Origin: Desulfonatronum lacustre DSM 10312
Lineage (GTDB): Bacteria > Desulfobacterota > Desulfovibrionia > Desulfovibrionales > Desulfonatronaceae
Assembly (NCBI RefSeq): GCF_000519265.1
Contig: NZ_KI912608.1
Coordinates: 2,451,313-2,515,312, forward strand
Direction of reading: 5' to 3'
DNA length: 64,000 bases
In this document: in pieces, positions 55,707 to 59,350 of the stretch
Layout: every line of letters begins with the position of its first letter
How positions within the stretch are numbered: the first letter of the stretch is position 1
The notes under the pieces: model-generated
Databases searched by the model: none
Told to the model about the DNA's origin: nothing
The model's input: the letters and a program-made list of their open reading frames with translations, nothing else
Program-made: the position numbers and the translations under genes

Positions 55707-57158
55707 ATGAATCAAGAACTGCCCGTCGTGGCCCTGATCGGTCGGCCCAATGTCGGCAAATCATCTCTTTTCAATCGACTGTTACGCTCTTCCAAGGCCC
55801 TGACCCACGATATCCCCGGCGTGACCCGGGACAGGATATACGGAGAGGTGCTGCGCGGCGCGAAACCCTACGCCCTGGTGGACACCGGCGGCCTGGAGCC
55901 GGAATCCAACGAGAACATCAAGCAGGCCGTGCTGGGCCAGGCCCGGGAGGCCCTGCTGGAAGCGACTCTGGTGCTGATGGTCGTGGATGGCCGGGAAGGA
56001 CCGAACGCCCTGGATGAACAGGTGGCCGGGCTGTTGCGCGCGGCCAACAAACCGGTGCTGTTGATCGTCAACAAGGTGGACGGCGCGGAGAAGGAAGACC
56101 TGTTCACCGCGGACTTTCACCGGTTCGGTTTCCCCCTTCTCGCCGTGTCCGCGGCCCATGGTTACGGCCTGAATCATCTCCGGGAGACGATCGTGGATCG
56201 GCTGCCGACCCCGATTGCCCCGGAAAGTGGGCCAGGGGACGCGCCAAAAGAAGCGCCCAAGGAAGCCTATGACGAGCAAGAGGAGCCAGACGATCAGGAC
56301 GAGCCGACAGGGGATGAGGCAACAGAGGATGAGCAGGAGAAGGGCGATTCCAAGGTCGGCGGGTTGCGGCTGGCGTTGCTCGGCCGGCCCAACGTGGGCA
56401 AGTCCTCCCTGATCAACGCCCTGATCGGCTACCACCGGGTGATCGTCTCCAACGAAGCCGGAACGACCCGGGACAGCGTGGACGTGACCTGGCAGGCCGG
56501 GGACAAGACGTACACCCTGGTGGATACGGCCGGAGTGCGCAAGCGCACCCGCATCCAGGACAGCCTGGAACGCTTCAGCGTCCTCAAGTCTCTGCGCAGC
56601 AGCAAAAAAGCCCAGATCACCCTGCTGGTCCTGGACGCCGTGGAGGGCCTGACCGGGCAGGATAAGAAGCTGTTTTCTTTTTTGGACCGTGAAAAAACCC
56701 CATTGATCGCGGTGATCAACAAAATCGACCTGATCCCCCGCAATGCGCTGAACGCCCTGAAGAAACAGTTTAAGGATGAATTGTCCTTTGCCGGACACGT
56801 CCCCCTGGTTTTCACCTCCACCATGACCCGGGCAGGGCTCGGCGGCCTGCTGCCCCTGGCGGAACGAACCTGGGATCAGTGCCAGACCCGGATTTCCACG
56901 GGCCAGTTGAACCGCATCCTCGGCGACGCCACCCAAAAACACCAACCCGCCGTGGTCAATCGCCGACGGGCCAAATTCTTCTACGTCACCCAAAGCGACG
57001 TGGCCCCGCCGACATTCGTTTTTTTCGTCAATGACCCGGAATTGGTCAAACCGGCGTACTCCCGATACCTGGAAAACCAAATCCGCAAACGGTTCAACCT
57101 GAACCTGACTCCGCTGCAACTCTATTTCCGCTCCAGCCATGAACAGAATCGAAAGTAG
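55707..57158 (+). CDS. der: Ribosome biogenesis GTPase Der (EngA)
   Basis: A 483-residue double GTPase required for 50S assembly. Two complete G domains: the first starts VALIGRPNVGKSSLFNRLLR (with DTGGLE, NKVD), the second LALLGRPNVGKSSLINALIG (with DTAGVRKR, NKIDL). A KH-like C-terminal domain ends LTPLQLYFRSSHE. Between the G domains is an unusually long acidic linker of ~45 residues (EAYDEQEEPDDQDEPTGDEA). The mini-gene with an in-frame UGA follows 12 bases later. Confidence 0.96.
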   Translation: MNQELPVVALIGRPNVGKSSLFNRLLRSSKALTHDIPGVTRDRIYGEVLRGAKPYALVDTGGLEPESNENIKQAVLGQAREALLEATLVLMVVDGREGPNALDEQVAGLLRAANKPVLLIVNKVDGAEKEDLFTADFHRFGFPLLAVSAAHGYGLNHLRETIVDRLPTPIAPESGPGDAPKEAPKEAYDEQEEPDDQDEPTGDEATEDEQEKGDSKVGGLRLALLGRPNVGKSSLINALIGYHRVIVSNEAGTTRDSVDVTWQAGDKTYTLVDTAGVRKRTRIQDSLERFSVLKSLRSSKKAQITLLVLDAVEGLTGQDKKLFSFLDREKTPLIAVINKIDLIPRNALNALKKQFKDELSFAGHVPLVFTSTMTRAGLGGLLPLAERTWDQCQTRISTGQLNRILGDATQKHQPAVVNRRRAKFFYVTQSDVAPPTFVFFVNDPELVKPAYSRYLENQIRKRFNLNLTPLQLYFRSSHEQNRK

Positions 57159-57170
57159 TCAGGATACCCC

Positions 57171-57329
57171 ATGTCGCTGATCAACGTGATTATCCCGGTC
57201 CTGATCGCGGCCGCCGCCTTCGGCCTGCTGCTGCGCAAAAAGGGCTCGCGCTGCCTGCCCTGACTGTACATCTACGTCCCGCTGGGAGCGGGGCTGCTGA
57301 CCTATTACGTGCTGTCCGGACGGTTTTGA
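57171..57329 (+). CDS. Candidate two-helix membrane selenoprotein with Cys-x-x-UGA motif
   Basis: The ATG at 57171 lies 12 bases after the der stop with AGGA 5 bases upstream. The first 30 codons give a membrane helix (INVIIPVLIAAAAFGLLL) and a basic turn RKKGSRCLP; codon 31 is TGA (57261-57263); the frame then continues for 21 codons as a second membrane helix LYIYVPLGAGLLTYYVLSG and RF to a TGA at 57327-57329. With read-through the product is 52 residues and the UGA falls in C-L-P-U, a CxxU redox-type motif at the turn between two helices. A GC-rich 6-bp hairpin (8 pairs with a wobble) starts 14 bases after the UGA. Codon third positions stay GC-rich on both sides. If the UGA is a stop, a 30-residue peptide remains. 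Family not recognised; read-through is inference. Confidence 0.65.
57276..57294 (+). promoter_or_regulatory. Candidate bacterial SECIS hairpin
   Basis: Stem CCCGCT/AGCGGG with apical loop GGG (57284-57286), extendable by one G-U and one G-C pair at its base. There are 20 bases between the in-frame UGA and the first apical G, within the spacing known for bacterial SECIS elements. Confidence 0.5.
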
Positions 57330-57460: not shown

Positions 57461-59350
57461 ATGTCCCACGTCCAACTCACCGCCAAGCACCGCCCCCAAA
57501 CCTTCGCCCAGGTCGCCGGGCAGGAGGAAATTCGGGCCATTTTATCCCGGGCCGCTGCCCAGGACCGCGTGGCCGCGGCCTATTTGTTCAGCGGCACCCG
57601 GGGCGTGGGCAAGACCACCCTGGCTCGGATTTTCGCCAAGGCGTTGAACTGCGAGACCGCCCCCACGGCCGAGCCTTGCAACAAGTGCCACCACTGCCGC
57701 CAGATCACCATCGGCTCCGCGCCGGACGTGGCCGAGATCGACGGGGCTTCCAACCGAGGCATTGAGCAGGCCCGCAGGCTCAAGGAAGACGTGGGCTACG
57801 CTCCCTTGGAGTGCCGCTACAAGGTGATCATCATCGACGAAGCGCACATGCTGACCAAGGAGGCCTTCAACGCCCTGCTCAAAACCATGGAGGAGCCTCC
57901 GCCCCGGGTGACCTTCATCATGGCCACCACCGAGCCGCACAAGTTTCCGGCCACGATCATCAGCCGCAGCCAACACTATGTTTTCAAGATGCTTTCCCAG
58001 GCCGGGCTGCAAACCCACCTGGAGCGCATCCTGGAACTGGAAGGCCGGGAATACGAGCCGGCCGCAACCGCATTGCTGGCCCGACGGGCCGCGGGCAGTG
58101 TCCGGGACGGCATGTCCCTTCTGGAACAGGTGCTGACCATCAGCGACCAGGCCTTGCGCCTGGAGGACGTCCGGCAAACCCTGGGACTGGCCGGCGGGGA
58201 GCTGTTTCAGCGACTGATCCAGGCCATGCGCGAGCAGGACTGCCTCGCCGTGCACGACGTGCTCGGGGACCTGCTGCGTGACGGGTTGGATCTGGGCTTT
58301 TTTCTGCGGGAGCTGGCCGGGTTGTGGCGCAATCTCTTTCTGTTGCGCCAAGCCGGAGACAAGGCCTTGCCTTTACTGGAGCTGCCCGAGGAAGAAGGAC
58401 GGGCGTGGCTGGGCGTGGCCGCCGACCTTTCTCCCACCTACATCCACGCGGCTTGGCAGATCACCCTGGAAGCCCAACGTAAGGTGCTGACCAGCCTGGA
58501 GCCGGCCCAGGCCCTGGAAATGCTGCTCCTGAACCTGACCTATCTGCCCGCGCTGGTGCCCTTGGACGGCGTGTTTTCAAGCGAGCCGCCGCAAACCGGC
58601 CCGGTTCGACCCGTAGCCTTTCCCCCTAGCCAGCCCAAAGCCCCATCCGACAAATCATCCGGGCAAGGACTCGGCGTCGGTCCGGAACCGATCCCGGCGG
58701 ATCGAGGAACGTCCCCCAGGCAGTCCTGGCGGGAGCGCTCCCAACAGTCCCCCAGGAAAATGTCCCAAACCGTTGAGGGACCGACGACAGCCGAAACACG
58801 CCCAGGGGCCGTGGAAGGCTCGGAGCAACAACTCGGACTCGACGGCGAATATCCTCCGCCCGCTCCCCTCTCCGCCGCGGCCCGAAACGTCCACGAGCCG
58901 CGATCTCAGCTCGATCCGTCCATGGAGACAGCGAATGGGACTCCGCCGCCGTCCTCGCCGAAAACGGCGGATTTGACGTCTTCAGCCAAGACCTTGGAAA
59001 ATTTTCTCGCGCACTATGACCGACTGTGCAGCGCGGACCAGGCCCGCTATCCAAAACTGCGCCAGATTGAATACGCCATGACGGAGCAGGGGCTGACGCT
59101 GCGCTGCCGACACATGATCCAGTACAACTTGCTCAGCGACCCCAATAAGCTTCGTATCCTGGAAGATGTGGCCCGGGAATATTTCGGACGCCCCCTCCAA
59201 CTGGAGCTTGTGCCGCCGCAAAATGGCGGTCAAAGACAGGGTTCGCCGTCCACCACGGCGTTTGCTCCGGACAAGCATCCACTGGTGGCTGAGTTCGTCG
59301 AACAGTTCAAGGCAAAAGTGGTTTCCGTGGAGCCACGACAAACTCATTAA
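57461..59350 (+). CDS. dnaX: DNA polymerase III subunits gamma/tau
   Basis: A 629-residue DnaX, the clamp-loader ATPase. HRPQTFAQVAGQEEIRAIL, Walker A GTRGVGKTTLARIFAKALNC, the zinc motif CNKCHHC, ASNRGIEQARRLKED, Walker B-type KVIIIDEAHMLTKEAFN and the sensor MATTEPHKFP are all present. After the clamp-loader core (~370 residues) comes a ~130-residue low-complexity Pro/Ser linker and a C-terminal tau-like domain. Upstream of ybaB and recR, the usual dnaX-ybaB-recR order. Confidence 0.97.
   Translation: MSHVQLTAKHRPQTFAQVAGQEEIRAILSRAAAQDRVAAAYLFSGTRGVGKTTLARIFAKALNCETAPTAEPCNKCHHCRQITIGSAPDVAEIDGASNRGIEQARRLKEDVGYAPLECRYKVIIIDEAHMLTKEAFNALLKTMEEPPPRVTFIMATTEPHKFPATIISRSQHYVFKMLSQAGLQTHLERILELEGREYEPAATALLARRAAGSVRDGMSLLEQVLTISDQALRLEDVRQTLGLAGGELFQRLIQAMREQDCLAVHDVLGDLLRDGLDLGFFLRELAGLWRNLFLLRQAGDKALPLLELPEEEGRAWLGVAADLSPTYIHAAWQITLEAQRKVLTSLEPAQALEMLLLNLTYLPALVPLDGVFSSEPPQTGPVRPVAFPPSQPKAPSDKSSGQGLGVGPEPIPADRGTSPRQSWRERSQQSPRKMSQTVEGPTTAETRPGAVEGSEQQLGLDGEYPPPAPLSAAARNVHEPRSQLDPSMETANGTPPPSSPKTADLTSSAKTLENFLAHYDRLCSADQARYPKLRQIEYAMTEQGLTLRCRHMIQYNLLSDPNKLRILEDVAREYFGRPLQLELVPPQNGGQRQGSPSTTAFAPDKHPLVAEFVEQFKAKVVSVEPRQTH

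Follow-up and report, generated by a model that had tools for sequence, protein, structure and literature searches.

Between der and dnaX in this part of the Desulfonatronum lacustre genome lies a short reading frame that is interrupted by a single UGA codon and then continues. The question it raises is whether this UGA is a stop or is decoded as selenocysteine (Sec), and, if the latter, what kind of selenoprotein the frame encodes. We have examined the frame in its window, the whole stretch of 64,000 nucleotides (61% GC), together with its homologues in other genomes. The ATG at 57171 would be the translation start, and the read-through ORF (57171-57329, forward strand) is MSLINVIIPVLIAAAAFGLLLRKKGSRCLP-U-LYIYVPLGAGLLTYYVLSGRF-stop, a product of 52 residues with Sec at position 31. 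The only in-frame UGA is codon 31 (57261-57263) and the terminal TGA lies at 57327-57329, exactly as in the preliminary description, whose count of GC third positions (27 of 29 before the UGA with the ATG left out, 17 of 21 after it) was reproduced on recounting. A Shine-Dalgarno-like AGGA, read from the sequence at 57161-57164, ends 6 nt upstream of the ATG, and purine-rich stretches are found upstream of many homologous starts. The UGA itself sits in a Cys-Leu-Pro-UGA motif between two predicted membrane helices.

The location between der and dnaX is borne out by two forward-strand neighbours that both score above their model cut-offs: der upstream (55707-57158; TIGR03594, 491.7 bits, cut-off 306.7) and dnaX downstream (57461-59350; TIGR02397, 380.2 bits, cut-off 250). 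A third gene, mtnA, was likewise identified by a model and lies upstream of der, so that the order is mtnA, der, the read-through ORF and dnaX. An antisense ORF at 57122-57271 overlaps the frame.

Homologues, their distribution and their neighbours

In a protein search, 15 of 61 genomes (that of the window included), spanning several families of the order, contained a single-TGA match to the read-through product with an E-value of 2.4e-6 or better; it is mainly this conservation that excludes a chance origin of the frame. When 348 genomes of the window's class were searched with a 15-sequence profile (A1), at least 67 of them gave a match at E 0.01. Since the profile searches score a limited number of candidates, genome counts are lower bounds. 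The TGA form is present in at least 63 of the 348 genomes, in G283 as a copy degraded by a second TGA; left out of the 63 are G069, G100 and G331, which were inspected, and G191, a stop-free match (E 0.007) within a 981-residue frame that was set aside. No full-length member without an internal TGA was seen in the window's class. The distribution there is patchy, and no match was seen in the congeners G002 and G006. A Desulfonatronum MAG is a relative with a match, found by a single-sequence query of a contig collection; the plasmid collection gave no match.

From this class 72 rows were taken on, 71 from the search plus the window, with the G191 row and a 5'-truncated duplicate in G008 omitted. 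An in-frame TGA is present in 68 of the 72 and absent in four. Alignment A2 comprises 65 sequences, the window's included, and was obtained from the 68 by removing G283, G331 and a truncated second copy in G007. The corresponding profile, run on 395 genomes sampled evenly across the phylum, matched at least 19: two within the order, 14 new members outside it, each with one TGA, and three that were not accepted. The weak matches in G373, G485 and G617 were not accepted as members, nor was a stop-free partial match in G579 (C30). The stop-free match in G008 is a 5'-truncated duplicate rather than a member without Sec; this partial copy (L034, G008:C8:228623-228691), situated some 1.4 kb downstream from the complete gene and with similar DNA around it, has neither the 5' half nor the UGA.

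A second class, that of G461 and probably Desulfobulbia, is far more densely populated, with matches in at least 215 of 257 genomes. Among its good genomes the tally is at least 137 of 148, a figure that contains one false match (G790) and two Cys forms; 64 of the weaker genomes were searched again. Altogether the TGA form is present in at least 210 of the 257, G907 among them with an additional TAA, and the remaining matches are two Cys forms (G930, G931), two false matches (G790, G791) and one that was left uninspected (G813). The matches in G790 and G791 (E 0.002-0.004, motif CSPC) were rejected as Cys forms, being antisense to another ORF and without the known neighbours; the gene beside them is presumably radC. 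The small CSPC frames L235 and L236, each on the strand opposite another ORF in a genome where SelA was not matched, were judged to be chance. For both classes together, at least 273 genomes carry the TGA form and 2 carry the Cys form. Homologues had been named in the preliminary description as support for a selenoprotein, and those found share the column of the UGA and are conserved before as well as after it.

The neighbours of the gene are housekeeping genes that change by lineage. Both der and dnaX occur in five loci, and an opposite-strand gene that we take to be mazG occurs in 27, close by in 25. In a wider set of 89 loci, which includes some duplicates and three non-members, a presumed typA is found in 54 and mtnA in 25. 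In several families of the second class (L146-L148, L221, L220) the gene is located upstream of mtnA at a distance of about 10-130 bases, or about 680 in L220, and mtnA is one gene away in the window's lineage as well. No constant partner gene was recognised among the neighbourhoods examined, and assignment of a function from gene neighbourhood was rejected for that reason.

Selection on the protein and on the hairpin

Among the columns of A2 (65 rows) only that of the UGA is invariant; C28 (codon at 57252-57254 in the window), P30, Y35 and G41 are each at least 90% conserved. Most of the proteins are 52-54 residues long, and 19-24 residues follow the UGA in the 63 clean members. Terminal stops are TGA in 26, TAG in 26 and TAA in 16 of the 68 TGA-selected rows, non-member G331 included. 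Over 57 non-independent pairs, pN/pS was 0.41 before the UGA, 0.40 across the 20 codons after it and 0.41 in codons 15-20, which lie beyond most hairpins, as against 0.91 immediately past the terminal stop. Purifying selection acts with equal strength on the codons of either side of the UGA. Synonymous divergence, computed from counts, was 0.26 in codons 1-14 past the UGA versus 0.51 in codons 15-20, as is expected of an RNA element.

The candidate element in the window is a SECIS-like hairpin at 57276-57294, with an 8 bp stem (57276-57283 with 57287-57294) and a GGG loop (57284-57286) beginning 20 nt after the UGA. The preliminary description had claimed a stable hairpin with G in its loop at this spacing; the loop and the spacing are exact and the MFE is -14.0 kcal/mol, but such stability is not unusual among dinucleotide shuffles (z -0.86; 39 of 200 fold as well). 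Compared with 150 synonymous recodings of the same peptide, a fraction of 0.02 was equally stable. The bSECIS model, as given in the accessible part of PMC13188914, specifies a loop of 3-9 nt, a stem of 4-16 bp, a spacing of 16-37 nt, G in the first two loop positions and an MFE of -7.5 or lower, and the window hairpin agrees with it in every respect.

The same holds for much of the family. Model and energy together are passed by 102 of 129 distinct sequences versus 47-68 in 15 sets of recodings with pooled codon weights; the other 27 fail the full model, two of them having no such hairpin at all. A scanner, written after the folds had been seen, found a SECIS-like hairpin in 65 of 80 members versus 27.1 +/- 4.2 (maximum 38) in 100 synonymous recodings. 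By group the counts were 22 of 31 in genus g52 (control maximum 15), 12 of 14 outside the order (maximum 9), 6 of 6 in genus g5, where the control also reaches 6, and 25 of 29 in the rest (maximum 16). When free energy alone is considered, the mean z is -1.21 for the region after the UGA and -0.53 for the upstream control, a significant difference; the region before the UGA also folds slightly better than its own recodings.

Compensatory change was assessed in 66 second-class sequences, from which L171 was left out. Counting from the U of UGA, the stem 16-23/28-35 pairs in 87.9% of cells, and 45 cells are altered on both sides versus 16.9 when shuffled. Its covariation is 0.388 compared with 0.236 +/- 0.016 for shuffled alignments (reached by none of 500) and at most 0.179 for slid ones. 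For one of the five measures, the count of pairs with changes in both partners, 144 of 500 shuffles attained the value of 4. AGGU is the most frequent loop, in 36 of 67 sequences, of which one row (L171) is in the wrong frame. An attempt to fit a single pairing model to all members failed, as the registers vary by lineage: in the window's lineage the pairing is 16-23/27-34 and the loop GGG; in g52 it is 24-28/36-40, with 28-29 of 30 sequences paired at each position; in g5 it is 15-20/25-30, with no covariation because the sequences do not vary; and nine others have 25-30/36-41 and a GGUCU loop. The GGU loops presumably resemble the SECIS element of E. coli formate dehydrogenase. We conclude that the SECIS-like hairpin is selected at the RNA level across the family.

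Further information comes from the two genomes with TGC at the UGA column, a form that the preliminary description had also named as support. Their motifs are C-P-M-C (G930) and C-P-A-C (G931), and mtnA lies downstream, as in Sec members, at about 10 and 680 bases respectively. Both lack the Gly-Ala-Gly stretch beneath the hairpin; its loss where Cys replaces Sec suggests that the needs of the RNA shaped the protein. In a tree of 131 short sequences the Cys forms are nested among Sec members, and the surrounding forks have bootstrap values of 95-99 and SH-aLRT values of 72-77. This placing is only moderate given the fork support, an unsettled bootstrap, a long Cys branch and the odd composition of G931. 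The Cys forms look like a Sec-to-Cys replacement, an event described as rare in bacteria in the accessible part of PMC13188914. Two extra copies in G071, L089 (G071:C130) and L099 (G071:C8), keep the UGA and the hairpin, have lost Cys28 (DNMSU, DISU) and have an extended C-terminus.

Decoding of the UGA and relation to known selenoproteins

Three of the Sec genes that the preliminary description had listed are present in the window's genome: a tRNA-Sec at C1:691294-691383 (82.4 bits, anticodon tca), selA at 611 bits and selB at 365.7 bits. In the window's class, selB was found at an E-value of 1e-100 or better in 57 of 63 host genomes; the other six gave weak selB matches only and are all drafts of at least 220 contigs. 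Among the few genomes examined outside the class, selA was found in G789, G536 and G907, and both Cys-form genomes (G930, G931) retain it. Two single-contig genomes with the Sec form, G845 and G846, showed neither SelA (TIGR00474, PF03841) nor SepSecS (PF05889), while SelA is present in their congeners G844 and G847. A masked stretch or another route to Sec-tRNA is possible in these two. G845 and G846 appear to be Desulfosediminicola flagellatus and D. ganghwensis, for each of which at least 40 selenoproteins are reported in the accessible text of PMC12013277; G789 would be Desulfolithobacter dissulfuricans, like these two a member of Desulfobulbia, and G288 would be Salidesulfovibrio onnuriiensis, a member of Desulfovibrionia.

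The conserved UGA, the coding character of the sequence past it, the RNA-level selection of the hairpin, the Sec genes and the Cys replacement together give good support to Sec decoding, and UGA 57261 is very probably a Sec codon. The frame would then encode a genuine SelB- and SECIS-dependent bacterial selenoprotein, a two-helix membrane hairpin with C-x-P-U opening the second helix. The RNA hairpin, its loop 20 nt past the UGA, would recruit SelB with Sec-tRNA; Sec would be inserted, and translation would end at the final stop.

Two explanations without selenium have to be set against Sec decoding. UGA is the leakiest of the stops, and ordinary suppression by near-cognate Trp or Cys insertion, or a regulated stop, might account for the frame; the draft genomes with only weak selB and the two without a SelA match could be read in this way. 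The tRNA-Sec, selA and selB of the window's genome and the strong selB of most class hosts argue against it, as does the covarying hairpin, and the sole replacement seen is Cys and not Trp, with the glycines beneath the hairpin lost along with it. We consider suppression very unlikely. Less likely still, and close to negligible, is the coincidence of two unrelated short frames, or a decayed gene that has stayed in frame by chance. Short frames are common at the GC content of this window, and a further in-frame stop is present in G283 and G907, but purifying selection is equal on both sides of the UGA and relaxed past the final stop, the length of the segment after the UGA is held within narrow limits and the TGA form recurs in hundreds of genomes. 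Suppression, chance and decay were all rejected in view of the invariant UGA, the distribution, pN/pS and covariation.

Comparison with known families began with models. At E 0.1, any one NCBIfam family was matched by at most four of the 65 members (best E 0.00067, Loki-CTERM) and any one Pfam family by at most three (best E 0.0021, DUF4126, in one member); 22 Pfam families were touched at this level, and cut-offs are known for the first member only. That annotation would overlook the gene, as the preliminary description had it, fits with the absence of a matching NCBIfam or Pfam model. The CGPC motif of thioredoxin places C-x-P-C at a helix N-terminus, as C-x-P-[C/U] is placed here, but the present protein has two predicted membrane helices, its low-confidence model lacks a thioredoxin fold and no thioredoxin Pfam was matched at E 0.1. 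Glycine reductase selenoprotein A (GrdA) is likewise dominated by its Sec form, but it is soluble and its Pfam family was unmatched at E 0.1. The putative mercuric transport selenoprotein is also a small membrane protein, but its family, PF02411 (MerT), was matched by none of the 65 members at E 0.1. It shares a C/SxxU motif (PMC13188914, Table 1, as far as accessible). In the accessible text of PMC12013277, GrdA is named in the discussion of families without Cys homologues. The CxxU redox selenoproteins (SelW-like, AhpD-like, GrdA; accessible part of PMC13188914, Table 1) share C-x-x-U and a UGA followed by a bSECIS; they have Pfam or NCBIfam models of their own, none of which was matched, whereas here the motif, in which Pro precedes Sec, belongs to a membrane hairpin of 52 residues.

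The inventory of 119 families published in 2026 (PMC13188914, Table 1) gives names, models and motifs but no sequences, and its accessible part holds no recognisable row. None of its families with Pfam or NCBIfam models is among the names matched at E 0.1, a comparison that covers those families and not the ones with only cd or PTHR identifiers. Deep-Sep, published in 2025, reported 3, 5, 0 and 0 new genes in D. flagellatus, D. ganghwensis, D. dissulfuricans and S. onnuriiensis, and none of its nine new families, as described in the accessible text, is recognisably the two-helix protein; its authors state that the method may miss families without Cys homologues (PMC12013277). Nothing similar appears in the accessible parts of the earlier surveys PMC1914089, PMC1794560 and PMC9312934. 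A description of the family was not found in the full-text literature, a coverage that excludes most subscription papers and preprints. Set apart from the listed families by names, models and motifs, the protein founds a predicted new selenoprotein family.

Topology and possible function

The preliminary description had proposed a two-helix membrane protein with CxxU, and AlphaFold2 run on A2 agrees, at low confidence (mean pLDDT 66.8, pTM 0.34). Helix 1 is predicted at residues 4-22 (57180-57236), which are hydrophobic in the alignment rows, and helix 2 at residues 29-51 (57255-57323), with U31 in its first turn; C28 is conserved. Averaged over 63 members, the net charge is -0.4 for the N-tail, +2.9 for the segment that leads up to the UGA and +0.8 for the C-tail. 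With a strongly basic loop ahead of the motif, the positive-inside rule would place both protein ends outside and C-x-P-U at the cytoplasmic face of the membrane.

Redox CxxC motifs lie at helix N-termini. With Cys28 before helix 2 and Sec31 in the first turn, the geometry is CxxC-like, which makes a reversible selenenylsulfide between Cys28 and Sec31 the most likely activity. Motif and topology suggest thiol/selenol redox chemistry at the cytoplasmic face, and the protein may act as a membrane-anchored thiol/selenol oxidoreductase or electron relay; we regard a redox role as somewhat more probable than not. It is possible, with a lower probability, that the selenoprotein instead uses its Sec to handle a soft metal or selenium and sulfur species, or to ligate a cofactor as a respiratory accessory subunit. 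Subunit or accessory roles are common among small two-helix membrane proteins. The accessible part of PMC13188914 notes interactions with metals for many selenoproteins. Against such a role, no constant neighbour of this kind was recognised and the Pfam search of the 65 members at E 0.1 gave no match to MerT; the weak matches of three members to NrfD (polysulphide reductase; best E 0.016) are read as membrane-helix noise.

The finding bears on three matters. The bacterial selenoproteome would gain a family that is present in nearly all good genomes of one class. It would also expose a blind spot, because the protein is nearly always in the Sec form: searches that start from Cys homologues or from annotated ORFs are likely to miss so small a protein. 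The shift of the hairpin register between lineages, while the protein stays similar, offers a natural experiment in SECIS evolution. More tentatively, the protein may be a membrane redox factor that exists mainly in its Sec form, is present in nearly all Desulfobulbia and takes part in a central membrane step of sulfur or thiol electron transfer in sulfate-reducing bacteria and related lineages; Sec would then be a requirement in nearly all lineages that have retained it.
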